Source: Actinostola sp. cb2023
Taxonomy: Eukaryota > Cnidaria > Anthozoa > Actiniaria > Actinostolidae
Length of the DNA: 64,000 nt
Direction: 5' to 3'
NCBI GenBank assembly: GCA_033675265.1
Contig: JAUJYZ010000484.1
Location: 1-64,000 of the forward strand
Below are positions 1-50,425 of the stretch, one piece after another (the first letter of the stretch is position 1; every line of letters starts with the position of its first letter). A model generated the notes under the pieces. The model did no database searches. It was not told the DNA's origin and saw only the letters and a program-made list of their open reading frames with translations. The translations under genes and the position numbers were made by a program.

Positions 1-1535
1 TTATTACAATCACTAATTATAAATATAATAATAATAATAAATAACATTCTTAATTAACTGCTAATTAAAGTTAGCACTGTTTCACGGTCACGTTTAGTGT
101 TTGCTCTCTATCTGTGTAGTTATTAGCATTGTTATATTAGTGGTATATTTATTCTTGTTTCATGTACCTTGTGGAAATAAAATGTGCGCTTGATTGATTT
201 TGTTGTTGTTTTGCGGCTCGGCATGTTCAATGGCTTGGTACCATGGCAACATACCTTCTTTTAAAAGTTTTCATTGCGAGCATCTACAGATAGCTGAAAC
301 TGTATCAGGTTCCTGAAGTCATCCAAGTACATAATCTAGAGAAAAGATACCTCAATGTCATTCGTAGGCAAAAACTAATTGGGAGTACATACAATAAACC
401 AGAAATAGTCTTCACGTGAAGATAGAATATATATATACCTGGTATGTATATACCCATTTTAGTGCTAGTCGAATATTCCATGGTTCTACTATTGTCTCAA
501 CTCTATCACTGTTAGTTAATAACTTAGTTCAACAATATATCATAAATAATACATTAACACATTGAAGAGCCAGTCTTCTGCATGTTGAAGTTACAGAACA
601 ACGAATTATTCTTGTACATGTAATATGTGCATGGTTCATATCAATATTTTATATTGATTGAAAATTCACTGGATACCTTGGATTGTCGTGGTGTTTCGCA
701 GTCCATGTCATCGATAAAGTATAGTACTAATAGCTTACAAAAGTCAGTGAGTAGGGACTGCAGTGCGCAGTAAAGGTCCGTTCCAGCTAGAACAACATTG
801 ATGGGATTGATAAGAAATAAACATGTGAAAACTTGTTAATTCGTTTATAATACCTTACTTACATTACTTCACCTCTTTAAGTTGGCGTACTTTTCTTCTC
901 AAATAAGCTGTTGTTTATTTGGAGTCTTCGCATGATTTTAGTTTTTCTTTACACAATGCTTACATGCAATCATTCGACTGGTGTGATGAGTAAATTATTC
1001 ACTTTTCTCTTTGTCACGACGAGAGAAGTCAGGTCGAAATCGTCAGGTCAGTAGCCGATAACTGCAGTGTCGATTGTTGGAATAGAAACCTTATATAAAC
1101 GCCTACTCAACGAGACATCCAACGATTCAGCTGACTATCGATTCCAAGTAGATCCAAGCGGCGGATAAAACACTGTTGGCTGAAGACCGAAGTGTACCAA
1201 ACACAACACCGAAGTTTCTTGAAGGCCTTGAACGATGGCCGATGTTTTTTGAATAAATTTTGTCTATTTTCGGCGTACAATTTCATCCGAAGGGAACGTA
1301 TATGCATGGATATACCTGGTACTAAACTATTGTTAGTAACAGTTAACATTTGCCGGGCCTCCAGCAACACAAAACTCTCCATTTCGATCTCGAACTCCAC
1401 TGGTCGCCATATTGTTCAGTACTCGCTACACAACTGATGACGTCCGAGCGAAAGGTCCATAGTACCAGGTTGGCAAGTGACGAAAAAGAGCGGACTCAAA
1501 ATTGTCCGACGTTTTTAGCGATCAAGTACGCAATA
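1..1535 (-). mobile_element. Left-arm partial copy of the Kolobok-like transposon (5' part, minus strand)
   Basis: This segment is the inverted counterpart of about 48850-50292, the first part of a TTAA-flanked transposon in the right arm. It contains the broken THAP frame. The terminal inverted repeat seen at 48695 is missing here, removed together with one unit of the ~200-bp flanking repeat by the rearrangement around 1440-1540. Relative to its partner this stretch carries many single-base extra letters, a net of about 32 over 1350 bp, unlike the rest of the arm. Confidence 0.75.
1107..1410 (-). pseudogene. THAP-domain transposase N-terminus, broken (left copy)
   Basis: The minus-strand frames read a THAP-type DNA-binding domain: an N-terminal Cys segment (FCVAGGPANVNC), then a PGISMH motif, a basic RRK stretch and a SVLC..HF closing motif. 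The pieces lie in more than one frame with a frameshift after SMH and an internal stop, so it is not translatable as one protein. THAP zinc fingers head the transposases of P and Kolobok elements. The TTAA target site seen for the right-arm copy favours Kolobok. Only the N-terminal domain is recognisable. Confidence 0.7.
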
Positions 1536-1900
1536 CCTATCATTTGAAAGCATATATAAAGTGTAAGTTCAGTTGTTAAGTAAGATTTTGACGAGTTTAT
1601 AGTGTATGCGATGACAAACTACGAAGTAATCAATTCGGCTTTTGTCTTCAAGTCGTTTGTTGTTGTCATTTGAATAACTAATACGCAAAACCTCTCAAAA
1701 ACCAGCAAAAAGCATATTATAAAGGCATGACGTTCGTGTAAATGTTGATTTCTAGAAGAGCCGTTGATCCATTGATAGTATTTCACTGGGTAGACAGGGT
1801 TTCTATCGCGTTATTTCATGCATATTAATGACGCCTTTAGAAATAGTTCGACTGTAAGTACATGTCCCAAAAGACAATAGGATTCTGTGCGATGGGAGTT

Positions 1901-2062
1901 TGTAATTTGTGAGTCCGTCGTTCATAAATTAAAGATCAGATTTGGAATACAAAATGTTTGTTCGTAGTTACATCTTTTTCAGTGTTGCTCTTTGACAGTT
2001 GGTATATAACAAAACACTTATTGACTGGGACCGAGGGAAAGCAGTGTGTTTTGTGGTCTCTC
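1901..2062 (+). repeat. Dispersed repeat copy 1 (TTGACAGTTGGTATATAACA family)
   Basis: About 160 bp, starting TGTAATTTGTGAG and running through CTTTGACAGTTGGTATATAA to GTTTTGTGGTCTC. It is repeated in the same orientation at 10128-10316 with small indels, and a short piece recurs near 53318-53340. This may be the end region of a transposon; no terminal repeats or target duplication could be fixed. The stretch 1536-1900 shows no gene. Confidence 0.7.
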
Positions 2063-2208
2063 GTTTTTTTTCTGGGGCGACATTTCGCTTTGCCTAGCCT
2101 CACAAATATATTTGAAGGGAGTTATTAGGTAATTTTTAATATGTGAGGACTAGGTAGCTAAAATGTCACCCCAGAAAAAAACCCCATGTGTATAGCGGGG
2201 TGGACTGC

Positions 2209-2355
2209 CATCGGGCCATTTCGGGCCATATCGGGCCATATCGGGCCATATCGGGCCATATCGGGCCTTATCGGGCCATTCCGGGCCTTATCGGGCCTTT
2301 ATCGGGCCACATCGGGCCTTATCGGGCCACATTCTAGGGCCACTTCGGGCCTTAT
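2209..2355 (+). repeat. Short minisatellite, about 11-bp unit (ATATCGGGCCA)
   Basis: Roughly thirteen tandem copies of an 11-bp unit with GGGCCA/GGGCCT variants. It lies about 70 bp upstream of the zinc-finger frame. An open frame runs through it only because stop codons are absent from the unit. Confidence 0.9.
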
Positions 2356-2426
2356 AGTTGACACCATAATCCGCTAGAAAATCATTTGGTTCGAGTCACC
2401 GTAGGGAGTGCATCCTTGAGTGAGAA

Positions 2427-2837
2427 ATGGGTCGCACTCATAGAAATTGTCCAGTGTTTGGTTGCACCAGCACCAATCTTGTTAGGTTGGCAAATCATTT
2501 AGACCAAGTGCATCATATGGAACAAGAGGAAAGAAAGAAATGGTTGCAATTGAACACGAGTAAAATGGGATTATGCAATATACTTCAAGGTCAAGAGATA
2601 AGAGAATACATAGGAAAAGAACAAAAAACATGTGTACAGAAGAGCTTTGACGATGTGTTACAGAGGCAAAACGAAATAGAATGCAAGTTTTATACTTACT
2701 TGAGAGATCGTGATTTGGATAAAAAAATACAATCCCACAAGAATAGTTTTAAAAAGAGAGGGAAATCATCCTACAGCAAAAAAGGATATAAAGTTGGCGC
2801 AAAATGGCTAACCCATGAAGTAGACCAAAAACGATGA
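2427..2837 (+). CDS. Small C2H2 zinc-finger protein, hypothetical
   Basis: A 136-residue frame starting at an ATG. Residues 8-30 form one C2H2-type finger: CPVFGC, then a hydrophobic linker and H-x4-H in HLDQVHH. The rest is highly charged and basic (KKIQSHKNSFKKRGKSSYSK), with no membrane segment. Just after the stop, another frame reads MCPHCQDNFH, a second possible zinc-binding motif, so the true 3' end may involve an intron or an old frameshift. The role is unknown; DNA or RNA binding is an inference. It begins the four-frame island 2427-5574 and is translated identically in the right arm. I recall similar short finger frames as dispersed families in cnidarian genomes, which suggests a mobile-element origin. 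Confidence 0.55.
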   Translation: MGRTHRNCPVFGCTSTNLVRLANHLDQVHHMEQEERKKWLQLNTSKMGLCNILQGQEIREYIGKEQKTCVQKSFDDVLQRQNEIECKFYTYLRDRDLDKKIQSHKNSFKKRGKSSYSKKGYKVGAKWLTHEVDQKR

Positions 2838-3074
2838 AAGAATGTGTCCGCATTGTCAAGACAACTTTCATTTGAGTATAATTGCATCTACCATAAAACC
2901 AAGTAAACATACACGCATGGGTGGATGAATAGATACTTGGAACACTAGTTGAGGTAGAGGCTTATTTATCATGGTGAATGATGTTCCTTTGCTTGGTGAC
3001 CACGCCTGTGTTAAATGTATATATAAGGGGCCATAACAGTCGGAGGAGAGAGGGAGAAAACTGACAAGGCCACC

Positions 3075-3584
3075 ATGTCCGCTCATTGCCAGGATGAAGA
3101 ATCCAGTTTAGATAGTAATCAGTAAAGTGAAGGTTCAGTTGGAATTCATTCTCAGGAAACAACAACATCGGAATCTTCAAACGATAGTCATGATGGAGTT
3201 GAAGAAAGTGTGTGGCAACGGATTCAGACAGAAGCAATAGAACGCCATGAGAACAAATGGCAACATTTAGTTGATAATTATGAACAAGCTGGCGAAAATG
3301 CAGAAACTGCTAAAATCAAAGCCAGTAACGACTTGGTACCGACATACAGAAAAGAGCTACGAGCTGTTTTATTTGAATATCTCAAATGGATACACGGATT
3401 AAAGAAAAATGCTGAATATCGAAAAGTAATGGCGACAAAACAAAGTCTTATGGACACAGAAGGCTTTGGATGGGAAGAAGCAACTGAGGCAGCTATAAAT
3501 CAACGAAAGTACTTGCTGAATAAACTCTTCTACAAACAGCCTATTCTAGAACACAATGCGAACCATTATCCTGTGTACAAGTAA
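3075..3584 (+). pseudogene. Hypothetical charged protein with one in-frame stop
   Basis: The frame opens at ATG 3075 and has a single TAA at codon 17 (after LDSNQ), then stays open to 3584. Without the stop it would be about 169 residues: an acidic, Ser-rich leader (TTTSESSNDSHDGVEES), then a helical, charged domain with WQRIQTEAIERHENKW, YLKWIHGLKKNAEY and GFGWEEATEAAINQRKYLL. No catalytic motif is visible. The stop may be a real lesion, or the start may be the later codon near 3210. An AATAAA lies directly after the stop codon. I cannot name the family. The same lesion is present in the right arm, so it predates the duplication or was copied with it. Confidence 0.5.
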
Positions 3585-4222
3585 ATAAACTATGATTGAA
3601 ATGTAGCTTCGTCAACTCATGTAATTCTTACTTTGCAATGGTTAAATAAACTTCTTGTTGAAATCCAACCTTTTGTCAATGTTTTTATTGTCAAATCCGA
3701 CTTCATAGCATGGGAAATATTCACACAAATATATCTAATCGCATGTTTTTATATTGCTTGAGCTATGGTATATATGAACTCAGGAGAACTGTGACTAATT
3801 ATTCAAATTGCGCGCATCCTTTTGAAATCAATTTGTTTTAAAACAATAACGGAAAACAGTTCCAAGCAATTACCAAAGTTTGTGAAAGAATAACGCTTGC
3901 TCTTAAACTTACGAATTAATATAATATTCACAACAAGTTAAAGTCGTTTAGGTGTATAACGAATTTTATTACAAAATCAGTATACTGAATATTTACATTC
4001 AATTTGATCAAGTTTAACAAATAGCAAATATAAGAGTTATTTAGCTAGGTTTTCTTGATTAGGATTGTGTTTTGGTTTGAAAACATATTTTCTTGGATAC
4101 AGTTTTCTTGCTTTGGGATTTCTTCCTCCCAATGTTCTGGTACAGAAAATTAATTTAGTTCTTCTTCTTTTTCTGCTTCTTTTACAAAGTTAAAATGAAT
4201 AGAACCTGGGTAAGGATAAGCT
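3585..4222. other. Intergenic stretch between convergent frames
   Basis: AT-rich, no frame of note. It includes AATAAA signals just after 3584 for the upstream frame and probably the 3' untranslated region of the minus-strand frame. Confidence 0.5.
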
Positions 4223-4903
4223 TTATAATACAAGTTCATATTTCCATGGTAGAGAATAGAACTCACTACACATGTGAGAGGTGAGCTTCGATCGAGGCCA
4301 CTTTTCGAGTTCAATGAAAGCCAGGTGGATCGTTGTTCTTGCGAGTTTTGGCAGTTCTGGTAGATAACGTTTCCAAGAATCGTGGAGTTGAATGTTCATG
4401 AAATGAGAAACATCGCATGCCGTTTCCCATACTTCTTGATAATCTATTTCTTGGACTGCATCATCATAATAACGGTCCAAGGTTTCTAGATCCATTTTGG
4501 GATGCTTGCTTGGCTGAACAAAGCCTTGGCAGTTCTTAACCATTTCATGCTTGATTTGATCTTTCATCAATCCAGCGAAGATTAAATTCAACATCACAGA
4601 GAATTGATGGCACGCTTCATCTCTCTCCAAAGCTTCTACTTCATCAACGATTATATGTTTCTGAATCCACATATTCTCAGCTACTTTTAAACTTGATTGA
4701 TCTTCTTGGCTTGGTGTTTTCAATGAGTGGAAATTCAAATTTGCCTCAACCGTTTTGTACCGTTGGAGGAGATAATAGACGCCAAAGCAGCACAATAGAG
4801 GGTTTATAAAAACAATAACAAACCTGCCACACCCCTTTTTCTGCATAGCTAATTCATCCACCCTTTTCCCAGTATCTATCCACCCACCACCATTCTTATC
4901 CAC
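4223..4903 (-). CDS. Hypothetical protein, minus strand, convergent with the preceding frame
   Basis: The frame has 226 codons. The first ~50 residues are doubtful: they come from a short GGTGGTGGGTGGATAAGAAT tandem repeat and a hydrophobic run (VIVFINPLLCCFGVYYLL), and may be intron or leader sequence. From about residue 48 (RYKTVEANLNFHSLK) the composition looks truly coding: soluble, alpha-helical, acidic, with EVEALERDEACHQFSVMLN, DLETLDRYYDDAVQEIDYQ and a Trp-rich C-terminus. No known catalytic motif is visible. Both arms encode the same protein. It could be an accessory frame of the same mobile element as its neighbours or an independent host gene; the family is not recognised. Confidence 0.45.
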   Translation of the reverse strand: MDKNGGGWIDTGKRVDELAMQKKGCGRFVIVFINPLLCCFGVYYLLQRYKTVEANLNFHSLKTPSQEDQSSLKVAENMWIQKHIIVDEVEALERDEACHQFSVMLNLIFAGLMKDQIKHEMVKNCQGFVQPSKHPKMDLETLDRYYDDAVQEIDYQEVWETACDVSHFMNIQLHDSWKRYLPELPKLARTTIHLAFIELEKWPRSKLTSHMCSEFYSLPWKYELVL

Positions 4904-4941
4904 CCACCACCATTCTTATCCACCCCTCCACCATCCACCAG

Positions 4942-5574
4942 GCTCCAAATGTCCCTCCTATACTGTGCCCAGTGAGGTCCTTCGAGCTTTATCTTTCCAA
5001 ACTACACCCGGAATTAGAGTTTCTTTGGCAACGACCAAAAGACATACCAAGCGAGACTGAGTCATGCGAGTCATGGTATAGCAGAGTACCACTCGGAAAA
5101 AAAACCATTGGGAACTTTATGAAAGAACTGTCCAAAACTGTAAGTTTGTCTAAACAGTACACAAATCACAGCCTAAGAGCCACTGCCTTAACAGTTTTGG
5201 ACCACTGTAACTTTGAAGCAAGACATATTATGAGAGTCTCAGGGCACAAATCCGAGGCCAGCATAAGGTCTTATTCTCGACGTCTATCCGAGAACAAGCA
5301 AAGGGAAATATCAGACGCCCTTGGTTTAGCCTGTGGATTACCAAATGAACAACAAACCCATGACGCAAGAAGTGAAGAATCACATGAAGTAACTGTTGAT
5401 CCTCCAGATAGCCCTACATTTGAACTGTCTAGCAGTCAGTTTGACTTTCCAGGACCACCAGTGGTCCAACAATCATCTATAAATACTGTGGAGAACCACG
5501 TCGGGCCCACAAGTTTCAAACATCGCCGTGTTCGCCAGGCAAGTGAACGTAGAACAAAATGGCGGCCTGTATAA
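4942..5574 (+). pseudogene. Truncated tyrosine recombinase, Crypton / DUF3504-like C-terminal half
   Basis: The open frame has no ATG at its start; it continues upstream of a GTG at 4972, after a possible CAG splice acceptor at 4939-4941. It encodes CPVRSFELYLSKLHPELEFL, then the C-terminal catalytic part of a tyrosine recombinase: NHSLRATALT (HxxR), SGHKSEASIRSY (GH box) and the nucleophile Tyr in RSYSRRLSE. The first catalytic Arg and the N-terminal half are absent. The last ~90 residues are Pro/Ser-rich. This arrangement is typical of Crypton transposases and of host proteins derived from them (KCTD1/ZMYM type). It is either one exon of a split gene or a truncated element. The right arm carries an identical copy. 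Confidence 0.65.
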
Positions 5575-8500
5575 ACATGCGGTGATGTTTTAGAGCATTT
5601 GTTCGGCGAATTTGACGAGGAAATTAACGAGAAAAAGATAATTTTGGTGAAGAAAAGGGGAGACATTAGATAAGTTCGATTTTGGAGATGGTTGTGAGAG
5701 GAAAAGGCCTCGATGGCGGATATTTTGAAGGAAAAAGCAACAGAAGAACACTCGATTAGATGGTAAGCTTATTAAGTTTCGCTGAAATAAATATATATTT
5801 CTTTATTTACGCCCTAAAGTAATTTTAGGGCTTTTATGTTGTGACGTTTGACTCATCAGTAAAATATTTTGCTATTGTAAATGTAAGATAATCGAGCAAA
5901 ATGCTACATAAATATAAAATAATGCCCTCACAGATTATACATTGTTTACCTCTAAATAAAATTAATCAAAGAAATCAATCAATTAGGCATTGAGTGATAT
6001 GAGTGGTTTTTACAATGTTATATATATTTTCTTTTAGGTACTCTAGAACCTCGACGTCAAGAACTTGAGTGTACATACTTGTATGATCTTTGAAAATATA
6101 TAATTAAATTATTACATGCATTGGAGTTTTGTTTATATATTTTCAACAAAACTTATAATTTATCCAACTGAGGTACATGTACATGATCTGTGTTATTGTT
6201 TCCAACATTATCAGTACCATTTCTTCCTGACCAAGAGTGAAGGTGGTACATGTAGCTAAGCAAAATTCACAAGAGATTATAATGTATTTGCAGGACAATA
6301 ACAATGTCCAAACTTGGCCAATCCTATTCTGATCTCCATTAAAATTTAGTTGCTGTTATGATCAGAAGAGTAGTGTGTAATTTATCTTAACGAATACAAA
6401 TAAGGAGTAACCAAGTACATGTAAATGCATGTACACATGGATGGAGCAAACACAATAATACTACAATAATACTAATTAATAACGTACAATAATTATTGGT
6501 TACTAGCCTTCTCTCTCTGTTTATGTGTTCCACTTCTGAGTTCAGGTGACTGATCTGACTTACACGTACAAACTTTCTGAACTTACATGAACGTTAGAGT
6601 GCATTTTAGAGTGTGATGATAAGTTTCATTATGTAGGTCTCACTGTGTGACAAGAAGCAAGGTCAAAAGTATTTGAATATTTCTGTCTCAACCTAAAACA
6701 ATAGTATGCAACAGACATACATGTATGTAAATCATTAAAGGTGGTGATGCTTGCGCCATACTGCTGCAATAATACCGGTACTTATTTTTGCCCCAGTCAT
6801 ATGTTGTAGTTTAAAATTATCTTTGGTTTAATTTAAATTGAACTGGTTTAATTTAAATTGAACCGGATCAAGTATAATTAGGGTTAGTACATTAGGGAAG
6901 ACATTATTTAGTTGTTCTTAGTGAAAATTATTTAGTTCTTTTTAGGACTTCCCCCCTCCCCCTCTAAAATTCCAAATATGCAGTTCAATTTAAATTGAAC
7001 CGGTTTAATTTAAATTGAACTGGTTTAATTTAAATTGAACCGGTTTAATTTAAATCGAACCGGTTTAATTTAAATTGAACTGGTTTAATTTAAATTGAAC
7101 CAAGGGATCATTTTAAACTACAACTAATATTTTAATTAATTAATGCTATTGTTTAGACTGCATATCAGAAAGTTGCCATCATGTCTCCAATGAATCTTGA
7201 ATTCAATCTCATTGTCTGTTATGGACTAAGGGGAAACCCTGTCTGTAGCTTACAGTCAAATGAACAACTTAGAAGAATTCTGAGTACTGATAAAAAAATT
7301 AGCCCATGGTTCATAATATGAGTTATTTTAGAAATTGGCAAAGGTAAGATGACCTGTATATTCAGACTTTGAAAGTGGTTGAAAATAAGGACACTGTATT
7401 TTATTTATTTAGTATTTAACAATAGATTAGACACTAAAACCATGCAACATTTTGTACTTAGCACTAATTAAACAATGTAGTAGAAAACAATATAAATGTC
7501 AGTATTTAGTACTAACAAAATACTATTTACATGTAGTTGCATGGCTTAAGTGTTTGCATGTGCTCTAGTATCCAATGTATTCTATGTAATGGTAGTAAAT
7601 GTAATGCAATTATTTAAAATGTACTCCATTTATGCTGTTATATGTGAGTTAAATTATAGTGTTTAATACCATTATTTAAAAAAACTTGTCATATACTTAA
7701 ACCATGAGGTATGATATTTCTGCAGAACTTTTACCCAGGGATTTTTTTCTACTCGCTACCGCAGTCCTGGGTGAGTAGAAAAAAAAAATCACAGGATACA
7801 GAACTTTACATGTAACCAAATAATAACTGGACACCAATCGATACCAACGTCACCTTTGTCACTACATAACTGTGGAATTATTTAAAAGAGTATATAGTTA
7901 TAAACCAGGCTAAGTGTTGGTATCACTGTTCACTGTGAACAATAGTTATATAACTTATATACATGTAAGAATGTCAGCATGTTTGTAGTATTTTTTTCAG
8001 ACTATCATATTGGTATTTATGAATCACTCATTTAATATAAATTAAATGACAATATAAGATAAACAGTTTTATTTCAATAAAATTGTAATTCGATCACAAG
8101 TCTATTGGCAAACTATAGTATATCAAATATATGTAGAGAAGCTCATATTCATATTTCATACAAGAAACTAAGATTATCTACAATATAGAATCCACTGGAT
8201 TCTAGTAAGCTAGTTACCATAGTAACACGTCAAAAGTCATATCTGGAATAATCCAATAAGTTCTCAAACAACAGTTCAATTAACACGTACGTCCAATATT
8301 CTAAGCTTAATTCACAAGTACAAATCTAATCTAATAAGTGTCAACACAGCTGATATATTTCCCAGCAAGATTGCGTCAACAACTTTCAATAACAACTCTT
8401 ATGTCTTGCGCAGTAGAGAACAAAGCACAAAGACACGTATCATGTTTACTAAGATAATAAGTTACAGAATTCGAGTCTTCAAACTCATGTAGTTTGATAA

Positions 8501-8716
8501 CTATCGAAGTATACTCAGATTTCAGTATTCTATTATTATCCAGATTCACGATACTTTCAATAGCCATAGAAATCGTATTGAAAAGATTACTTATAAACCT
8601 GTACTTTTGGGATTACTTCAACTATTGATACGCCTAGTTATGTATTATTCTGACGTATAGCATATTAGCATATGTTGACGTATTGCCATTATAAATATAG
8701 TGCACAAAGAGGTTGC
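5575..8716. other. AT-rich noncoding stretch
   Basis: No supported gene. It contains the 20-bp minisatellite at 6825-7101 and a small inverted repeat near 7738-7790 (CCCAGGGATTTTTTTCTACTC against GAGTAGAAAAAAAAAATC). Confidence 0.6.
6825..7101 (+). repeat. 20-bp near-palindromic minisatellite (GGTTTAATTTAAATTGAACC)
   Basis: Two units at 6825-6864 and six at 6981-7101, separated by about 115 bp of non-repeat sequence. Each unit is close to its own reverse complement, so the block can form many small hairpins. Units alternate CCGG and CTGG junctions. Confidence 0.9.
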
Positions 8717-8793
8717 ACTTCACTTCAGAGAGTACACACAGTACTTCACTTCAGAGAGTACACACAATACTTCACTTCAGTCATGTGTACAGT
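8717..8793 (+). repeat. 26-bp tandem repeat, three units
   Basis: Units of ACTTCACTTCAGAGAGTACA plus 6 bp at 8717, 8743 and (diverged) 8769. Confidence 0.8.
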
Positions 8794-9177
8794 GGACAGT
8801 TGAAACTTCACTTCAGTCATTTGTTAAGTTCAGTTGAGAGTCGAACCATGACTTGAGAACAACAAACCATAGTTAACCAGGAAAGACCGATGCAATCCTA
8901 TCCAGAGAGCTTCTAATAAACATCTTGTACCAACCAACCAGCCTACTGTTTCTACAAGTTCACATATACACAGTACATTCATCATTCTTTACAGTTCAAT
9001 TGTTTACATGCATGCACATTACATGCATACTCTCTTATTTTACAATCAAGACACCTATATCAATACACCTTCATATTGTCCTTCATTTCCTTGGTGTGGG
9101 CCAGTTGGTATAATGACACGGCCTAAAGTTAAGCTGCATGGCTGAAAAACAATATTAAGATTACGGATATAACATAC

Positions 9178-9213
9178 TTAAGCTTAAGCTTAAATCATAT
9201 AAGCTTAAGCTTA
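9178..9213. repeat. Small palindrome built of TTAAGCTTAAGC
   Basis: Two inverted TAAGCTTAAGCTTA arms separated by a 7-bp AT loop. The surrounding bases 8794-10127 show no convincing gene. Confidence 0.7.
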
Positions 9214-10127
9214 CTAATTCTGAAATACAAAACATTGATTTCACATGTCACAACCTACGTACAGCACACGAGATCTAGGACTAGCATTGTTATACCTCTT
9301 CCACTGACATAAGATGAAGAATATTTCCCTTACCATTACTACTTGGCTTCTAACTCTGTTTGTTTTCTTTGCCACTATAATTCTTCCCTCATAGACTTTT
9401 CTATCGGCAGTGTTTTTGATAAATTATGATGCCCTTTCTCTTGGTAAAAGCGACGACTTGAATACGCGGCAGCGTTGAAACTTACAGTCAACATAGTGAA
9501 AATTGACCAAAAACAATCGCTCAGCACAGAAAATCCAAAAAGAATTTCAAAAAACTAAAAAGAAGGCGACTTCACACAATTATCGAGGATTCAAACTACG
9601 TTTATTTCATTTACAAAATAATTAACACGGTGAAAATAAAACAAGAGTCAAAATATGCCCTTCAAATCAAAATCTTCAGATTTTCAAAACCAAGCGAAAA
9701 CAATAATCGTAAAAATATCGCTTTTCAATAATTACCCTTCGTGTTTGGTACCAAAATAGACAGCAAGGAAGGCTTCGTCTTTTCCTGTCTTCCGATTTTT
9801 CTTCGGAGAAATACGATCGACATACGAGGCTCCGAAAGAGAAGTCGTTTTGCACTCGACAAATTCGTCCTCAGTCTCCCAAATTTGCCGCCCGTCCAATA
9901 TGGCGGCATGCTACATTAATCCCGGCGTTTTTCTGGCTGTATGGGCCCGACGTGAATTAACCTTTATTTTAATTTGGAACTGGGGCATTTCAAAATTGTA
10001 ATATCTCATTCAATTTCAACTCAAAGTAGCTTATATTGCCCTTTGAAAGTTATATTTTTGACAGTTTATTACTGTAATGTACAAGCTTTGGCTTTTTTTA
10101 GTATGAACGGAAAATTTTTCAGTAACT

Positions 10128-10316
10128 GTAATTTGTGAGTTCGTCGTTCATAAAGATCAGATTTGGAATAAAAAATGTTTGTTCGTAGTTAGATATTTTT
10201 GTTGTTCTTTGACAGTTGGTATATAACAAAACACTTAGCAGCTCCACCTCGGGAAACATTCGCGGTCTCGGGACCACAAAACATACTGTTTCCCTCGGTC
10301 CCAGTCAATAAGTGTT
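10128..10316 (+). repeat. Dispersed repeat copy 2 (TTGACAGTTGGTATATAACA family)
   Basis: Second same-orientation copy of 1901-2062. After AAAACACTTA it differs: it contains GGGACCACAAAAC and CCCTCGGTCCCAGTCAATAA, which is the inverse complement of the tail of copy 1. Two ends of one element therefore seem fused head to head here. Confidence 0.65.
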
Positions 10317-10344
10317 AATTATATGAGTCGTGATGTCTTGATTG

Positions 10345-10530
10345 ATTTTCTTACAGAAAAGTAATAACAACAACAGACATCAGACAGCAAATGCAAATTA
10401 CTTTGTTAACTACATACATACATATCCAAATGGTCTTGAGAGCAGAAGCTTCGTCAATAATTCGATAAAGATTACGACAATTTTTAATGTAAACATGTTT
10501 CGGCAGTGCTGCTTCCATCATCGGTAATTT
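10345..10530 (-). mobile_element. Penelope-like element fragment
   Basis: The minus strand reads GATGATGGAAGCAGCACTGC followed by CGAAACATG, the type of hairpin-plus-GAAAC tail shared with the Penelope-like copies at 14598-15136 and 17371-17655. There is no coding domain in this fragment. Confidence 0.45.
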
Positions 10531-10788
10531 AATGAGTGATCTATACAGTGTATGAGCTTATATATAGTATATCAGTATGAAGAACAAAAGAACATTGAAG
10601 TGTGTGATTACAGTGAAAGTTTTAAATTTACATGAGAGACTTGTTGATTTAAAGAGGGCTTTTCCCAAAGGATGTGAATGGCTTCCTTAATTTTCATACA
10701 TACATATACATACTCGAGCGTGACAACTTTTGTCTCTGTCTTTACATTTTGCACATATACATACATATTATATATATGAAGCATTAGG

Positions 10789-10906
10789 ATTAAGAAGAGG
10801 CAGGCAACTTCTGAATGTCCAACAAGTTTAATGTAAACGTTTCGGCCCTTCGGCCCGTTTACATTAAGCTTGTTGGACAATCAGAAGTTGCCTGCCTCTT
10901 CTTAAT
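10789..10906. repeat. Long hairpin, arms about 50 bp
   Basis: The arm ATTAAGAAGAGGCAGGCAAC continues through TTCTGA and the GTCCAACAAG segment, then is inverted after a CGGCCCTTCGGCCCG turn. Only a few mismatches are visible. It is a foldback/MITE or the two ends of a collapsed element; the GAAACGTTTACATTAA part links it to the neighbouring Penelope-like tail. Confidence 0.85.
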
Positions 10907-11015
10907 ACTTATGCTACATATACATATTGGAGTGCAGACTGTGAATCCTGGAGGATCCTTTTATTGGGAGTTCATCGTTGAACATTAACACCTATTTATC
11001 TTTATTCTACTCATA

Positions 11016-11194: not shown

Positions 11195-11398
11195 TACATA
11201 TTATATATATATATACTTTATTTGGTACCATATAAACAAATGTTACATATTTACAATCTATTTATAGTCGACAATTAAATACAATTTACATCATCTGATA
11301 TTTACAATGTTTACAATAATATAAATTTAAGGAAGGGCTATTACATAATTATTGCCATAGATTATAAATAATATAGAAAAAGATTGAAGAGAAACATT

Positions 11399-11777: not shown

Positions 11778-11967
<190 letters not shown>

Positions 11968-11975
11968 TAAGTATA

Positions 11976-39205: not shown

Positions 39206-39463
39206 CCTAATGCTTCATATATATAATATGTATGTATATGTGCAAAATGTAAAGACAGAGACAAAAGTTGTCACGCTCGAGTATGTATATGTATGTATGA
39301 AAATTAAGGAAGCCATTCACATCCTTTGGGAAAAGCCCTCTTTAAATCAACAAGTCTCTCATGTAAATTTAAAACTTTCACTGTAATCACACACTTCAAT
39401 GTTCTTTTGTTCTTCATACTGATATACTATATATAAGCTCATACACTGTATAGATCACTCATT

Positions 39464-39650
39464 AAATTACCGATGATGGAAGCAGCACTGCCGAAACATG
39501 TTTACATTAAAAATTGTCGTAATCTTTATCGAATTATTGACGAAGCTTCTGCTCTCAAGACCATTTGGATATGTATGTATGTAGTTAACAAAGTAATTTG
39601 CATTTGCTGTCTGATGTCTGTTGTTGTTATTACTTTTCTGTAAGAAAATC
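39464..39650 (+). mobile_element. Penelope-like fragment (right copy)
   Basis: Inverse of 10345-10530. Confidence 0.45.
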
Positions 39651-39677
39651 AATCAAGACATCACGACTCATATAATT

Positions 39678-39866
39678 AACACTTATTGACTGGGACCGAG
39701 GGAAACAGTATGTTTTGTGGTCCCGAGACCGCGAATGTTTCCCGAGGTGGAGCTGCTAAGTGTTTTGTTATATACCAACTGTCAAAGAACAACAAAAATA
39801 TCTAACTACGAACAAACATTTTTTATTCCAAATCTGATCTTTATGAACGACGAACTCACAAATTAC
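39678..39866 (-). repeat. Dispersed repeat copy 2 (right copy)
   Basis: Inverse of 10128-10316. Confidence 0.65.
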
Positions 39867-42800
39867 AGTTACTGAAAAAATTTTCCGTTCATACTAAAAA
39901 AAGCCAAAGCTTGTACATTACAGTAATAAACTGTCAAAAATATAACTTTCAAAGGGCAATATAAGCTACTTTGAGTTGAAATTGAATGAGATATTACAAT
40001 TTTGAAATGCCCCAGTTCCAAATTAAAATAAAGGTTAATTCACGTCGGGCCCATACAGCCAGAAAAAACGCCGGGATTAATGTAGCATGCCGCCATATTG
40101 GACGGGCGGCAAATTTGGGAGACTGAGGACGAATTTGTCGAGTGCAAAACGACTTCTCTTTCGGAGCCTCGTATGTCGATCGTATTTCTCCGAAGAAAAA
40201 TCGGAAGACAGGAAAAGACGAAGCCTTCCTTGCTGTCTATTTTGGTACCAAACACGAAGGGTAATTATTGAAAAGCGATATTTTTACGATTATTGTTTTC
40301 GCTTGGTTTTGAAAATCTGAAGATTTTGATTTGAAGGGCATATTTTGACCCTTGTTTTATTTTCACCGTGTTAATTATTTTGTAAATGAAATAAACGTAG
40401 TTTGAATCCTCGATAATTGTGTGAAGTCGCCTTCTTTTTAGTTTTTTGAAATTCTTTTTGGATTTTCTGTGCTGAGCGATTGTTTTTGGTCAATTTTCAC
40501 TATGTTGACTGTAAGTTTCAACGCTGCCGCGTATTCAAGTCGTCGCTTTTACCAAGAGAAAGGGCATCATAATTTATCAAAAACACTGCCGATAGAAAAG
40601 TCTATGAGGGAAGAATTATAGTGGCAAAGAAAACAAACAGAGTTAGAAGCCAAGTAGTAATGGTAAGGGAAATATTCTTCATCTTATGTCAGTGGAAGAG
40701 GTATAACAATGCTAGTCCTAGATCTCGTGTGCTGTACGTAGGTTGTGACATGTGAAATCAATGTTTTGTATTTCAGAATTAGTAAGCTTAAGCTTATATG
40801 ATTTAAGCTTAAGCTTAAGTATGTTATATCCGTAATCTTAATATTGTTTTTCAGCCATGCAGCTTAACTTTAGGCCGTGTCATTATACCAACTGGCCCAC
40901 ACCAAGGAAATGAAGGACAATATGAAGGTGTATTGATATAGGTGTCTTGATTGTAAAATAAGAGAGTATGCATGTAATGTGCATGCATGTAAACAATTGA
41001 ACTGTAAAGAATGATGAATGTACTGTGTATATGTGAACTTGTAGAAACAGTAGGCTGGTTGGTTGGTACAAGATGTTTATTAGAAGCTCTCTGGATAGGA
41101 TTGCATCGGTCTTTCCTGGTTAACTATGGTTTGTTGTTCTCAAGTCATGGTTCGACTCTCAACTGAACTTAACAAATGACTGAAGTGAAGTTTCAACTGT
41201 CCACTGTACACATGACTGAAGTGAAGTATTGTGTGTACTCTCTGAAGTGAAGTACTGTGTGTACTCTCTGAAGTGAAGTGCAACCTCTTTGTGCACTATA
41301 TTTATAATGGCAATACGTCAACATATGCTAATATGCTATACGTCAGAATAATACATAACTAGGCGTATCAATAGTTGAAGTAATCCCAAAAGTACAGGTT
41401 TATAAGTAATCTTTTCAATACGATTTCTATGGCTATTGAAAGTATCGTGAATCTGGATAATAATAGAATACTGAAATCTGAGTATACTTCGATAGTTATC
41501 AAACTACATGAGTTTGAAGACTCGAATTCTGTAACTTATTATCTTAGTAAACATGATACGTGTCTTTGTGCTTTGTTCTCTACTGCGCAAGACATAAGAG
41601 TTGTTATTGAAAGTTGTTGACGCAATCTTGCTGGGAAATATATCAGCTGTGTTTGACACTTATTAGATTAGATTTGTACTTGTGAATTAAGCTTAGAATA
41701 TTGGACGTACGTGTTAATTGAACTGTTGTTTGAGAACTTATTGGATTATTCCAGATATGACTTTTGACGTGTTACTATGGTAACTAGCTTACTAGAATCC
41801 AGTGGATTCTATATTGTAGATAATCTTAGTTTCTTGTATGAAATATGAATATGAGCTTCTCTACATATATTTGATATACTATAGTTTGCCAATAGACTTG
41901 TGATCGAATTACAATTTTATTGAAATAAAACTGTTTATCTTATATTGTCATTTAATTTATATTAAATGAGTGATTCATAAATACCAATATGATAGTCTGA
42001 AAAAAATACTACAAACATGCTGACATTCTTACATGTATATAAGTTATATAACTATTGTTCACAGTGAACAGTGATACCAACACTTAGCCTGGTTTATAAC
42101 TATATACTCTTTTAAATAATTCCACAGTTATGTAGTGACAAAGGTGACGTTGGTATCGATTGGTGTCCAGTTATTATTTGGTTACATGTAAAGTTCTGTA
42201 TCCTGTGATTTTTTTTTTCTACTCACCCAGGACTGCGGTAGCGAGTAGAAAAAAATCCCTGGGTAAAAGTTCTGCAGAAATATCATACCTCATGGTTTAA
42301 GTATATGACAAGTTTTTTTAAATAATGGTATTAAACACTATAATTTAACTCACATATAACAGCATAAATGGAGTACATTTTAAATAATTGCATTACATTT
42401 ACTACCATTACATAGAATACATTGGATACTAGAGCACATGCAAACACTTAAGCCATGCAACTACATGTAAATAGTATTTTGTTAGTACTAAATACTGACA
42501 TTTATATTGTTTTTCTACTACATTGTTTAATTAGTGCTAAGTACAAAATGTTGCATGGTTTTAGTGTCTAATCTATTGTTAAATACTAAATAAATAAAAT
42601 ACAGTGTCCTTATTTTCAACCACTTTCAAAGTCTGAATATACAGGTCATCTTACCTTTGCCAATTTCTAAAATAACTCATATTATGAACCATGGGCTAAT
42701 TTTTTTATCAGTACTCAGAATTCTTCTAAGTTGTTCATTTGACTGTAAGCTACAGACAGGGTTTCCCCTTAGTCCATAACAGACAATGAGATTGAATTCA

Positions 42801-44424
42801 AGATTCATTGGAGACATGATGGCAACTTTCTGATATGCAGTCTAAACAATAGCATTAATTAATTAAAATATTAGTTGTAGTTTAAAATGATCCCTTGGTT
42901 CAATTTAAATTAAACCAGTTCAATTTAAATTAAACCGGTTCGATTTAAATTAAACCGGTTCAATTTAAATTAAACCAGTTCAATTTAAATTAAACCGGTT
43001 CAATTTAAATTGAACTGCATATTTGGAATTTTAGAGGGGGAGGGGGGAAGTCCTAAAAAGAACTAAATAATTTTCACTAAGAACAACTAAATAATGTCTT
43101 CCCTAATGTACTAACCCTAATTATACTTGATCCGGTTCAATTTAAATTAAACCAGTTCAATTTAAATTAAACCAAAGATAATTTTAAACTACAACATATG
43201 ACTGGGGCAAAAATAAGTACCGGTATTATTGCAGCAGTATGGCGCAAGCATCACCACCTTTAATGATTTACATACATGTATGTCTGTTGCATACTATTGT
43301 TTTAGGTTGAGACAGAAATATTCAAATACTTTTGACCTTGCTTCTTGTCACACAGTGAGACCTACATAATGAAACTTATCATCACACTCTAAAATGCACT
43401 CTAACGTTCATGTAAGTTCAGAAAGTTTGTACGTGTAAGTCAGATCAGTCACCTGAACTCAGAAGTGGAACACATAAACAGAGAGAGAAGGCTAGTAACC
43501 AATAATTATTGTACGTTATTAATTAGTATTATTGTAGTATTATTGTGTTTGCTCCATCCATGTGTACATGCATTTACATGTACTTGGTTACTCCTTATTT
43601 GTATTCGTTAAGATAAATTACACACTACTCTTCTGATCATAACAGCAACTAAATTTTAATGGAGATCAGAATAGGATTGGCCAAGTTTGGACATTGTTAT
43701 TGTCCTGCAAATACATTATAATCTCTTGTGAATTTTGCTTAGCTACATGTACCACCTTCACTCTTGGTCAGGAAGAAATGGTACTGATAATGTTGGAAAC
43801 AATAACACAGATCATGTACATGTACCTCAGTTGGATAAATTATAAGTTTTGTTGAAAATATATAAACAAAACTCCAATGCATGTAATAATTTAATTATAT
43901 ATTTTCAAAGATCATACAAGTATGTACACTCAAGTTCTTGACGTCGAGGTTCTAGAGTACCTAAAAGAAAATATATATAACATTGTAAAAACCACTCATA
44001 TCACTCAATGCCTAATTGATTGATTTTCTTTGATTAATTTTATTTAGAGGTAAACAATGTATAATCTGTGAGGGCATTATTTTATATTTATGTAGCATTT
44101 TGCTCGATTATCTTACATTTACAATAGCAAAATATTTTACTGATGAGTCAAACGTCACAACATAAAAGCCCTAAAATTACTTTAGGGCGTAAATAAAGAA
44201 ATATATATTTATTTCAGCGAAACTTAATAAGCTTACCATCTAATCGAGTGTTCTTCTGTTGCTTTTTCCTTCAAAATATCCGCCATCGAGGCCTTTTCCT
44301 CTCACAACCATCTCCAAAATCGAACTTATCTAATGTCTCCCCTTTTCTTCACCAAAATTATCTTTTTCTCGTTAATTTCCTCGTCAAATTCGCCGAACAA
44401 ATGCTCTAAAACATCACCGCATGT
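39867..44424. other. Noncoding stretch (right copy of 5575-10127)
   Basis: Contains the inverse 26-bp tandem repeat (about 41203-41279) and the small AAGCTT palindrome (about 40783-40818); the 20-bp minisatellite is listed separately. No gene supported. Confidence 0.6.
42897..43173 (-). repeat. 20-bp near-palindromic minisatellite (right copy)
   Basis: Inverse of 6825-7101, same unit numbers. Confidence 0.9.
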
Positions 44425-45057
44425 TTATACAGGCCGCCATTTTGTTCTACGTTCACTTGCCTGGCGAACACGGCGATGTTTGAAACTTGTGGGCCCGACG
44501 TGGTTCTCCACAGTATTTATAGATGATTGTTGGACCACTGGTGGTCCTGGAAAGTCAAACTGACTGCTAGACAGTTCAAATGTAGGGCTATCTGGAGGAT
44601 CAACAGTTACTTCATGTGATTCTTCACTTCTTGCGTCATGGGTTTGTTGTTCATTTGGTAATCCACAGGCTAAACCAAGGGCGTCTGATATTTCCCTTTG
44701 CTTGTTCTCGGATAGACGTCGAGAATAAGACCTTATGCTGGCCTCGGATTTGTGCCCTGAGACTCTCATAATATGTCTTGCTTCAAAGTTACAGTGGTCC
44801 AAAACTGTTAAGGCAGTGGCTCTTAGGCTGTGATTTGTGTACTGTTTAGACAAACTTACAGTTTTGGACAGTTCTTTCATAAAGTTCCCAATGGTTTTTT
44901 TTCCGAGTGGTACTCTGCTATACCATGACTCGCATGACTCAGTCTCGCTTGGTATGTCTTTTGGTCGTTGCCAAAGAAACTCTAATTCCGGGTGTAGTTT
45001 GGAAAGATAAAGCTCGAAGGACCTCACTGGGCACAGTATAGGAGGGACATTTGGAGC
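44425..45057 (-). pseudogene. Truncated tyrosine recombinase (right copy)
   Basis: Translation identical to 4942-5574: C-terminal catalytic half with NHSLRATALT, SGHKSEASIRSY and the Tyr in RSYSRRLSE, lacking the N-terminal half and the first catalytic Arg. Confidence 0.65.
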
Positions 45058-45095
45058 CTGGTGGATGGTGGAGGGGTGGATAAGAATGGTGGTGG

Positions 45096-45776
45096 GTGGA
45101 TAAGAATGGTGGTGGGTGGATAGATACTGGGAAAAGGGTGGATGAATTAGCTATGCAGAAAAAGGGGTGTGGCAGGTTTGTTATTGTTTTTATAAACCCT
45201 CTATTGTGCTGCTTTGGCGTCTATTATCTCCTCCAACGGTACAAAACGGTTGAGGCAAATTTGAATTTCCACTCATTGAAAACACCAAGCCAAGAAGATC
45301 AATCAAGTTTAAAAGTAGCTGAGAATATGTGGATTCAGAAACATATAATCGTTGATGAAGTAGAAGCTTTGGAGAGAGATGAAGCGTGCCATCAATTCTC
45401 TGTGATGTTGAATTTAATCTTCGCTGGATTGATGAAAGATCAAATCAAGCATGAAATGGTTAAGAACTGCCAAGGCTTTGTTCAGCCAAGCAAGCATCCC
45501 AAAATGGATCTAGAAACCTTGGACCGTTATTATGATGATGCAGTCCAAGAAATAGATTATCAAGAAGTATGGGAAACGGCATGCGATGTTTCTCATTTCA
45601 TGAACATTCAACTCCACGATTCTTGGAAACGTTATCTACCAGAACTGCCAAAACTCGCAAGAACAACGATCCACCTGGCTTTCATTGAACTCGAAAAGTG
45701 GCCTCGATCGAAGCTCACCTCTCACATGTGTAGTGAGTTCTATTCTCTACCATGGAAATATGAACTTGTATTATAA
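45096..45776 (+). CDS. Hypothetical protein (right copy)
   Basis: Translation identical to the 4223-4903 frame. The first ~50 codons come from the tandem GGTGGTGGGTGGATAAGAAT and a hydrophobic stretch and are doubtful; the helical acidic body from about residue 48 looks coding. Family not recognised. Confidence 0.45.
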   Translation: MDKNGGGWIDTGKRVDELAMQKKGCGRFVIVFINPLLCCFGVYYLLQRYKTVEANLNFHSLKTPSQEDQSSLKVAENMWIQKHIIVDEVEALERDEACHQFSVMLNLIFAGLMKDQIKHEMVKNCQGFVQPSKHPKMDLETLDRYYDDAVQEIDYQEVWETACDVSHFMNIQLHDSWKRYLPELPKLARTTIHLAFIELEKWPRSKLTSHMCSEFYSLPWKYELVL

Positions 45777-46414
45777 AGCTTATCCTTACCCAGGTTCTAT
45801 TCATTTTAACTTTGTAAAAGAAGCAGAAAAAGAAGAAGAACTAAATTAATTTTCTGTACCAGAACATTGGGAGGAAGAAATCCCAAAGCAAGAAAACTGT
45901 ATCCAAGAAAATATGTTTTCAAACCAAAACACAATCCTAATCAAGAAAACCTAGCTAAATAACTCTTATATTTGCTATTTGTTAAACTTGATCAAATTGA
46001 ATGTAAATATTCAGTATACTGATTTTGTAATAAAATTCGTTATACACCTAAACGACTTTAACTTGTTGTGAATATTATATTAATTCGTAAGTTTAAGAGC
46101 AAGCGTTATTCTTTCACAAACTTTGGTAATTGCTTGGAACTGTTTTCCGTTATTGTTTAAAAACAAATTGATTTCAAAAGGATGCGCGCAATTTGAATAA
46201 TTAGTCACAGTTCTCCTGAGTTCATATATACCATAGCTCAAGCAATATAAAAACATGCGATTAGATATATTTGTGTGAATATTTCCCATGCTATGAAGTC
46301 GGATTTGACAATAAAAACATTGACAAAAGGTTGGATTTCAACAAGAAGTTTATTTAACCATTGCAAAGTAAGAATTACATGAGTTGACGAAGCTACATTT
46401 CAATCATAGTTTAT

Positions 46415-46924
46415 TTACTTGTACACAGGATAATGGTTCGCATTGTGTTCTAGAATAGGCTGTTTGTAGAAGAGTTTATTCAGCAAGTACTTTCGTTGAT
46501 TTATAGCTGCCTCAGTTGCTTCTTCCCATCCAAAGCCTTCTGTGTCCATAAGACTTTGTTTTGTCGCCATTACTTTTCGATATTCAGCATTTTTCTTTAA
46601 TCCGTGTATCCATTTGAGATATTCAAATAAAACAGCTCGTAGCTCTTTTCTGTATGTCGGTACCAAGTCGTTACTGGCTTTGATTTTAGCAGTTTCTGCA
46701 TTTTCGCCAGCTTGTTCATAATTATCAACTAAATGTTGCCATTTGTTCTCATGGCGTTCTATTGCTTCTGTCTGAATCCGTTGCCACACACTTTCTTCAA
46801 CTCCATCATGACTATCGTTTGAAGATTCCGATGTTGTTGTTTCCTGAGAATGAATTCCAACTGAACCTTCACTTTACTGATTACTATCTAAACTGGATTC
46901 TTCATCCTGGCAATGAGCGGACAT
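46415..46924 (-). pseudogene. Hypothetical charged protein with one in-frame stop (right copy)
   Basis: Same frame and same codon-17 stop as 3075-3584. The shared lesion shows it was present before the arms separated, or was spread between them by conversion. Confidence 0.5.
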
Positions 46925-47161
46925 GGTGGCCTTGTCAGTTTTCTCCCTCTCTCCTCCGACTGTTATGGCCCCTTATATATACATTTAACACAGGCGTGGT
47001 CACCAAGCAAAGGAACATCATTCACCATGATAAATAAGCCTCTACCTCAACTAGTGTTCCAAGTATCTATTCATCCACCCATGCGTGTATGTTTACTTGG
47101 TTTTATGGTAGATGCAATTATACTCAAATGAAAGTTGTCTTGACAATGCGGACACATTCTT

Positions 47162-47572
47162 TCATCGTTTTTGGTCTACTTCATGGGTTAGCCATTTTGC
47201 GCCAACTTTATATCCTTTTTTGCTGTAGGATGATTTCCCTCTCTTTTTAAAACTATTCTTGTGGGATTGTATTTTTTTATCCAAATCACGATCTCTCAAG
47301 TAAGTATAAAACTTGCATTCTATTTCGTTTTGCCTCTGTAACACATCGTCAAAGCTCTTCTGTACACATGTTTTTTGTTCTTTTCCTATGTATTCTCTTA
47401 TCTCTTGACCTTGAAGTATATTGCATAATCCCATTTTACTCGTGTTCAATTGCAACCATTTCTTTCTTTCCTCTTGTTCCATATGATGCACTTGGTCTAA
47501 ATGATTTGCCAACCTAACAAGATTGGTGCTGGTGCAACCAAACACTGGACAATTTCTATGAGTGCGACCCAT
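47162..47572 (-). CDS. Small C2H2 zinc-finger protein (right copy)
   Basis: Translation identical to 2427-2837: one CPVFGC..HLDQVHH finger at the N-terminus and a basic C-terminus. Confidence 0.55.
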   Translation of the reverse strand: MGRTHRNCPVFGCTSTNLVRLANHLDQVHHMEQEERKKWLQLNTSKMGLCNILQGQEIREYIGKEQKTCVQKSFDDVLQRQNEIECKFYTYLRDRDLDKKIQSHKNSFKKRGKSSYSKKGYKVGAKWLTHEVDQKR

Positions 47573-47643
47573 TTCTCACTCAAGGATGCACTCCCTACGG
47601 TGACTCGAACCAAATGATTTTCTAGCGGATTATGGTGTCAACT

Positions 47644-47790
47644 ATAAGGCCCGAAGTGGCCCTAGAATGTGGCCCGATAAGGCCCGATGTGGCCCGATAA
47701 AGGCCCGATAAGGCCCGGAATGGCCCGATAAGGCCCGATATGGCCCGATATGGCCCGATATGGCCCGATATGGCCCGAAATGGCCCGATG
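47644..47790 (-). repeat. 11-bp minisatellite (right copy)
   Basis: Inverse of 2209-2355. Confidence 0.9.
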
Positions 47791-47936
47791 GCAGTCCACC
47801 CCGCTATACACATGGGGTTTTTTTCTGGGGTGACATTTTAGCTACCTAGTCCTCACATATTAAAAATTACCTAATAACTCCCTTCAAATATATTTGTGAG
47901 GCTAGGCAAAGCGAAATGTCGCCCCAGAAAAAAACG

Positions 47937-48098
47937 AGAGACCACAAAACACACTGCTTTCCCTCGGTCCCAGTCAATAAGTGTTTTGTTATATACCAAC
48001 TGTCAAAGAGCAACACTGAAAAAGATGTAACTACGAACAAACATTTTGTATTCCAAATCTGATCTTTAATTTATGAACGACGGACTCACAAATTACAA
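47937..48098 (-). repeat. Dispersed repeat copy 1 (right copy)
   Basis: Inverse of 1901-2062. Confidence 0.7.
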
Positions 48099-48299
48099 AC
48101 TCCCATCGCACAGAATCCTATTGTCTTTTGGGACATGTACTTACAGTCGAACTATTTCTAAAGGCGTCATTAATATGCATGAAATAACGCGATAGAAACC
48201 CTGTCTACCCAGTGAAATACTATCAATGGATCAACGGCTCTTCTAGAAATCAACATTTACACGAACGTCATGCCTTTATAATATGCTTTTTGCTGGTTT

Positions 48300-48690
48300 T
48301 TGAGAGGTTTTGCGTATTAGTTATTCAAATGACAACAACAAACGACTTGAAGACAAAAGCCGAATTGATTACTTCGTAGTTTGTCATCGCATACACTATA
48401 AACTCGTCAAAATCTTACTTAACAACTGAACTTACACTTTATATATGCTTTCAAATGATAGGTATTGCGTCAGTATTAGTTATCTGATAGAGCGAGAATG
48501 AGTTGAACTCGCGTCGGCCGCTAAGAGTCATTCAACAGTGACAACAAACGACTTGAAGACAGAAGCCGATTTTATTGCTTCATAGTTTTTCATCGCCGAT
48601 ACACTATAAACTCGTCATAAACTTACTTAACGACTGAACTTACACTTTATATAAGCTTTCAAATGATAGCTTTTGAGTATTAGTTATCTG
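48300..48690 (+). repeat. ~200-bp tandem repeat, two units, left of the Kolobok insertion
   Basis: Units contain GAGCGAGAATGAGTTGAACT, CGTCGGCCGCTAAGAGTCAT and ACACTATAAACTCGTCA, and end GCTTTCAAATGATAG. The left arm retains only one unit. A further unit lies right of the insertion at 52426-52640. Confidence 0.85.
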
Positions 48691-48914
48691 TTAAAGTGCC
48701 TATGCAGCCAAATTTTCGGATACAAAATAAACTCACTACTTGAAAGCTTTTGAGTTTCGTTATTGATTGTGAAAATTTCAGCAATTTTGAGTCACGGGAA
48801 GTATACTTTTTCGTCACTTGCATAACACCTGGTAGAGCTAAAAACGTCGGACATTTCCGCTCGGCCAAAACATGCCTCGTGACGTCATCAGTTGTGTAGC
48901 GAGTACTGAACAAT

Positions 48915-49215
48915 ATGGCGACCAGTGGAGTTCGAGATCGAAATGGAGAGTTTTGTGTTGCTGGAGGCCCGGCAAATGTTAACTGTACTAACAATAGTTT
49001 AGTACCAGGTATATCCATGCATATACGTTCCCTTCGGATGAAATTGTACGCCGAAAATAGACAAAATTTATTCAAAAACATCGGCCATCGTTCAAGGCCT
49101 TCAAGAACTTCGGTGTTGTGTTTGGTACACTTCGGTCTTCAGCCAACAGTGTTTTATCCGCCGCTTGGATCTACTTGGAATCGATAGTCAGCTGAATCGT
49201 TGGATGTCTCGTTGA
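48915..49215 (+). pseudogene. THAP-domain transposase N-terminus, broken (right copy)
   Basis: ATG 48915 opens MATSGVRDRNGEFCVAGG and the CTNNSLVPGISMH segment; after that the THAP pattern continues in a second frame (FPSDEIVRRK, then a stop) and returns to the first for RTSVLCLVHFGLQPTVF. One frameshift pair and one stop make it non-functional. The domain would bind the element's ends. It lies 220 bp inside the left TIR, the usual place for the first exon of such a transposase. Confidence 0.72.
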
Positions 49216-50279
49216 GTAGGCGTTTATATAAGGTTTCTATTCCAACAATCGACACTGCAGTTATCGGCTACTGACCTGACGATTTCGACCTGACTTCTCT
49301 CGTCGTGACAAGAGAAAAGTGAATAATTTACTCATCACACCAGTCGAATGATTGCATGTAAGCATTGTGTAAAGAAAACTAAAATCATGCGAAGACTCCA
49401 AAATAACAACAGCTATTTGAGAAGAAAAGTACGCCAACTTAAAGAGGTGAAGTAATGTAAGTATTATAAACGAATTAACAAGTTTTCACATGTTTATTTC
49501 TTATCAATCCATCAATGTTGTTCTAGCTGGAACGGACCTTTACTGCGCACTGCAGTCCCTACTCACTGACTTTTGTAAGCTATTAGTACTATACTTTATC
49601 GATGACATGGACTGCGAACACCACGACAATCCAAGGTATCCAGTGAATTTTCAATCAATATTAAAATATTGATATGAACCATGCACATATTACATGTACA
49701 AGAATAATTCGTGTTCTGTAACTTCAACATGCAGAAGACTGGCCTTCATGTGTTAATGATATTTATGATATATTGTTGAACTAAGTTATTAACTAACAGT
49801 GATAGAGTTGAGACAATAGTAGAACCATGGAATATTCGACTAGCACTAAATGGGTAATACATACCAGGTATATATATATTCTATCTTCAGTGATAGACTA
49901 TTTCTGGTTTATTGTATGTACTCCAATTAGTTTTTGCTACGAATGACATTGAGGTATCTTTTCTCTAGATTATGTACTTGGTGACTTCAGGAACTGATAC
50001 AGTTCAGCTTATCTGTAGATGCTCGCAATGAAAACTTTTAAAAGAAGTATGTTGCCATGGTACCCAAGCCATTGAACATGCCGAGCCGCAAACAACAACA
50101 AAATCAATCAAGCGCACATTTATTTCCACAAGGTACATGAAACAAGAATTAATATACCACTAATATAACATGCTAATACTACACAGTAGAGAGCAAACAC
50201 TAAAACCGTGAAACAGTGCTAACTTTAATTAGCAGTTTAATTAAGAATGTTATTTATTATTATTATTATATTTATAATT

Positions 50280-50425
50280 AGTGATTGTAATAAACCTGTG
50301 AAATAAAAATTCGATATTAGTGTGTAATAGTCAAATAGTCATAAAAGAAAACAATGGAAATAAAGTCTACTAGTGTCTATTAATTAGTCTACTTTACTAT
50401 TTCACAGGTTTATTGCAATCACTCT
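50280..50425. mobile_element. MITE, about 146 bp (AGTGATTGYAATAAACCTGTGAAA ends)
   Basis: Inverted ends enclose an AT-rich middle; related in design to 11399-11542. Base 1 of the window pairs with 50292, inside its left end. Confidence 0.75.

Follow-up and report, generated by a model that had tools for sequence, protein, structure and literature searches.

Does the near-perfect palindrome with which this contig begins exist in the chromosome, or did it arise on the way to the assembly? The window, i.e. the whole stretch of 64,000 nucleotides that was analyzed, comprises bases 1-64000 of a contig of 318,425 bp (C977) in an assembly of 424,152,321 bases and 1,594 contigs. Self-BLAST verified that two near-perfect inverted arms with a spacer of exactly 336 bp, as reported in a preliminary description of the locus, are present in the deposited sequence (Table 1). 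The arm body (1528-24829 versus 48470-25166) is 99.77% identical over 23,328 alignment columns with 5 mismatches and 30 gap openings, and its longest exact stretch common to both arms measures 2,593 bp, far above chance. The outer piece (1-1448 versus 50293-48876) aligns at 96.9% over 1,454 columns with 3 mismatches and 35 gap openings. Mirror symmetry is broken once, near the contig end, where 79 bp in the left arm (1449-1527) face 405 bp in the right arm (48471-48875). The constant sum of matched landmark positions that had been described earlier holds for the body (49995-49998 at its ends) and is lost beyond this break, the sum being 50294-50324 in the outer 1.5 kb. Several open reading frames form identical mirrored pairs across the arms. 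Taken together, the observations presented here indicate that the structure very probably stems from a chimeric, folded-back long read that forms the end of the contig rather than from a real chromosomal palindrome; the chimeric read, previously named as a main alternative to a genuine structure, is now the reading favored by the evidence.

Table 1. Features of the palindrome and its surroundings (window coordinates)
Feature	Position	Strand	Evidence
Left arm, mirror copy of 25166-50293, very probable assembly artefact	1..24829	-	self-BLAST, arm alignment
Outermost left arm, noisy-read quality	1..1448	-	comparison with seven outside copies
Garbled stretch replacing 405 bp of the right arm	1449..1527	.	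arm alignment; no listed match elsewhere for 1449-1519
Fold-back breakpoint, sole novel joint	24829..24830	.	listed outside matches stop at 24829
Spacer of 336 bp, native, continuing the right arm	24830..25165	+	self-BLAST, assembly matches
Dispersed element over the joint 25165/25166, resuming at 25390-25453	24990..25215	+	26 listed outside places; 7/7 loci
Right arm, native copy, continuous with the flank 50294-64000	25166..50293	+	self-BLAST, assembly matches
Dispersed repeat extending across 50293, the mirror end of the right arm	48691 to beyond 51200	+	at least 108 matches, many at 95-99%

The position of the palindrome is the first indication of its origin. Base 1 of the window is base 1 of the contig, left-arm homology is still running there and no outer left boundary is visible. 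Because the window starts at the first base of its contig, the palindrome has a right flank (50294-64000 and the rest of the contig) and no left flank, and this position removes the second flank that proof of a genomic palindrome requires. Long near-identical inverted arms, a short spacer and a contig end with a single flank are all traits of a fold-back artefact. A real and very young inverted duplication, in which a break at 24830 was healed by copying 25 kb or more in fold-back fashion, the 336-bp loop remaining as spacer, or in which the arms were subsequently gene-converted, is unlikely, even though it accounts for several of the same features. It would explain the end of the contig within the left arm, since assemblers stall in long identical repeats, and palindromes are known from other animal assemblies such as that of Botryllus schlosseri (PMC12448946, as reported there). 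Nevertheless, such a duplication should possess a left flank, whereas the homology reaches the first base of the contig inside a dispersed repeat and not at a repeat boundary.

Repeats found elsewhere in the assembly allowed us to determine which arm is the copy. A dispersed element lies across the joint between spacer and right arm. In a search with 24400-25600, for which the best 40 candidates were scored, 26 outside places among the 135 listed matches align unbroken over this joint (25165/25166), which is also continuous in all seven outside loci examined. The joint between left arm and spacer (24829/24830) is crossed by no outside match among the 135 listed, and the left-arm matches stop at or before 24829. 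Because, among the matches listed, the element crosses the right joint only, the right arm and the spacer are native and the left arm is the fold-back copy, with 24829/24830 as the sole novel joint. Among the matches listed, the first 157 bases of the spacer occur in this contig only; the same search also missed the related stretches 12033-11967 and 13026-13081, so this is weak evidence. Both stretches resemble 24821-24887 (82-90%). They read TTGAAAAAC where the joint reads TTGATAAGC, which is a weaker hint that another sequence probably lay to the left of 24830 in the native state and that there was slight homology at the turn. A further dispersed repeat of approximately 173 bp (25218-25390, about 95%) aligns with its copies on a single strand in each arm and looks like a small mobile insertion, because it interrupts the element at 24990-25215, which resumes at 25390.

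The arm-spacer-arm shape had been described before as fitting a fold-back, and this geometry is correct. The joint test fixes the direction of the event and not its cause. One native and one novel joint are predicted by the fold-back artefact and are equally expected of a real fold-back duplication, which would also produce identical arms.

The quality of the outermost left arm does differ from what a real duplication predicts. Seven outside copies of the repeat, chosen from many that were listed, were aligned with the outer ends of both arms. At all 35 positions in the outer 1.4 kb where left and right differ, most of the seven copies support the right arm (7/7 copies at 34 differences and 6/7 at one), and the left arm has majority support at none (0/35). 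In the left arm, 25 of these differences are insertions, 3 are deletions and the other 7 are substitutions or shifted bases. In addition, two bases and a 36-bp deletion are common to both arms and present in none of the seven outside copies. Because all 35 errors fall on the left and these private variants are shared, both ends represent one and the same genomic copy, the left one in noisy-long-read quality. The insertion-rich nature of the errors would also point to the type of sequencing platform. Noisy contig ends are possible without any fold-back. For a real duplication, though, similar coverage would be expected of both arms, and the outer end of the second should not be noisy. When the assembly was searched with 1380-1700, the garbled stretch 1449-1519 had no match besides the window itself among the matches listed. 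Minisatellite-like units of approximately 150 bp, which occur in tandem on many contigs, are located at 1527-1680 and 48298-48679; the unit 48541-48679 of the right arm is missing from the garbled stretch of the left arm.

The differences in the arm body follow another pattern, with errors falling on either arm. The 30 indel events comprise 16 in which sequence is missing from the left arm and 14 in which it is missing from the right; 23 of the 30 are single-base events and 23 of the 30 lie within runs of one base. Low-complexity runs hold three of the five mismatches (17716 and 17722 in an A-run, 11819 in an AAT array), which leaves two (3840 and 9646) in 23,328 columns. Comparison of 21 body differences with the outside loci examined rendered a single one decidable, at 12212, where the left arm is supported by all six outside copies. 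Within the window, the difference at 21013 could be compared with another internal copy found in both arms, which agrees with the right arm, and at 22973 the consensus of a 58-bp repeat agrees with the left arm. Judged from these alignments, the body differences look like consensus noise over identical arms. The region around the latter two positions (19964-23365, mirrored at 26632-30034) contains a 1.8-kb tandem unit (about 99%) and 58-bp satellite arrays of 6, 9.5 and 12.4 copies, and is followed by a 51-bp array at 23364-23741. Among the matches listed, the whole of 12200-14200 was found in this contig only, once per arm; one other contig (C492) carries a diverged part of this stretch (87%), and the first 0.8 kb is a common repeat.

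These results bear on the remaining explanations in different ways. The body of the left arm is polished to about the same degree as that of the right, which is compatible with a real second arm and speaks against an artefact. On the other hand, with no more than two credible substitutions over 23 kb, a real duplication would have to be very recent. An erroneous join between two haplotypes placed in opposite orientations, the other source of error raised in the preliminary description, would likewise yield inverted and similar arms in one contig and is very improbable. The haplotypes of an outbred marine animal differ by 0.5-1%, and over a hundred substitutions would be expected over the length of the arms, compared with the two mismatches outside low-complexity runs. 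Because the body differs by 30 indel events and five mismatches, three of them in low-complexity sequence, over 23,328 columns, the arms represent one haplotype and not two. The private variants common to both arms also contradict a haplotype join, unless the animal is nearly homozygous here.

The structure could have formed as follows. The left end of the contig would have arisen from a chimeric long read of the fold-back type, or from a few of these. Their source may have been a library fragment of approximately 25.5 kb (24830-50293), one end of which closed on itself without an adapter, for example by the joining of a 336-nt single-stranded tail to the recessed partner strand at 25166. Such a fragment would be read along one strand, around the 336-nt loop and back along the other strand, and the assembler would then have extended the contig with this fold-back read. 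Most of the extra arm may then have been put right by polishing with reads from the true locus, its last 1.5 kb staying raw; we conjecture that reads of this part perhaps extend beyond 50293 and find a better mapping on the right arm. The fold-back molecule itself is what we infer from the deposited sequence, which counts against an artefact, as does the good polish of the left body.

Palindromes have been reported in 0.5% of PacBio reads from unamplified DNA, one cause given being SMRTbell adaptors that were absent or went unrecognized (PMC6218980). If an adapter had simply been missed, no spacer of 336 bp would remain. At the turn, the closest resemblance to an adapter (25052-25098) scored 14.5 of 45, compared with a 95th percentile of 12 and a maximum of 16 in 200 shuffles. 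It lies inside the dispersed element and 6 of 146 window tiles score equally high, and an adapter in the spacer was rejected as this weak match is explained by chance. Because no adapter remnant is recognizable at the turn, the palindrome was not assigned to plain missed adapters.

The first 10 kb of 17 other contigs were compared in a manner that detects arms of up to 5 kb. A near-identical inverted repeat running from the first base was found in none of the 17 contig starts within this range of arm length. The survey gives no support for a widespread artefact, and arms of 25 kb are beyond its reach. The first 2 kb of one of these contigs (C971) hold inverted repeats that have diverged (75-81%). 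For another (C972), a search of its start against the assembly, crowded by a common repeat, returned no inverted match in its own contig among the matches listed, except for a local one at 378-567. In a third (C3), 5,000 of the first 10,000 bases are N, which represents a gap or else sequence that was withheld. An inverted chimera generated by whole-genome amplification before sequencing would be the same class of artefact from another source and appears extremely improbable. For amplified DNA, 25 kb per arm would be long, and palindromes should be frequent after amplification, yet none of the 17 contig starts carried a near-identical one (arms up to 5 kb). Where amplification was used, in two Arabidopsis PacBio sets, palindromes were reported in 43.6% and 47.8% of reads (PMC6218980).

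An organelle, rDNA or other RNA-gene palindrome was rejected, as the window yielded neither tRNA nor tmRNA, and none of its matches to Rfam reached the gathering score, and a plasmid origin was dismissed as 20000-25200 was without megablast match in a plasmid collection. No support was found for the gene conversion, amplicon, organelle or sex chromosome settings which had been considered for the palindrome.

The frames scanned in the window are mobile-element and domain fragments. A frame at 4849-5574 (mirrored at 44425-45150) has weak Phage_integrase and DUF3504 matches below the Pfam curated cut-offs and presumably represents the tyrosine recombinase of a Crypton-like element. Another frame at 14777-15265 (mirrored at 34719-35216), preceded by a microsatellite, encodes a GIY-YIG nuclease domain above the Pfam cut-off. 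Outside the palindrome, a broken retrotransposon lies at 56986-59971, with different frames encoding its reverse transcriptase, RNase H-like and integrase domains; we take it to be Gypsy-like. Another near-palindrome, local and 791 bp long (62084-62874), is 90% identical to its own reverse complement and adjoins ATA/TTA microsatellites. Among the 120 protein matches listed for one repeat-encoded, mobile-element-like frame, five carry an organism name (Porites lobata, Oculina patagonica, Exaiptasia diaphana, Paramuricea clavata and Stylophora pistillata), and this single protein suggests a cnidarian.

These observations call for caution. Where a contig ends in a palindrome of seemingly perfect symmetry, the structure can be mistaken for an amplicon or for a palindrome maintained by gene conversion, and whatever it contains appears in twice the number of copies. 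Two tests that require no reads can be applied to other cases: outside repeat copies reveal the erroneous arm, and dispersed elements identify the native joint. Should the palindrome be real after all, it would be an unusually young large palindrome with at least 25 kb per arm, in which substitutions had yet to build up or were erased by gene conversion, and whose left flank had failed to enter the assembly.

Among known systems, the palindromic reads addressed by Pacasus are similar in that near-perfect inverted copies of one locus meet at one turn and are able to damage assemblies; by comparison with that account (PMC6218980), the palindrome described here resides in a contig and not in a read, and has a native 336-bp spacer and no recognizable adapter. 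The fold-back reads treated by Breakinator also place their second half on the same locus in the opposite strand with the turn near the midpoint. They are reported to make up approximately 0.55-0.6% of Nanopore genomic reads and to be almost absent from three PacBio samples, and the cut-off of the tool is given as 200 bp, whereas the loop here measures 336 bp (PMC12870357). The 2013 assembly of Adineta vaga likewise yielded palindromes from a non-model animal, of which none were reported as detected in the related A. ricciae; there, homologous diverged gene copies were described as joined, whereas the arms here are the same copy (PMC5916493). Inverted duplications in one scaffold are also described for Folsomia candida, with 11 palindromes and a Ks of 0.2 for the Dscam2 palindrome (PMC5490193), and for Botryllus schlosseri, where palindromes were reported after depth, structural, BUSCO and CRAQ checks (PMC12448946). 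According to these accounts, the palindromes of both animals are internal and were found via gene synteny, in contrast to the present one, which occupies a contig end and has almost no divergence between its arms.
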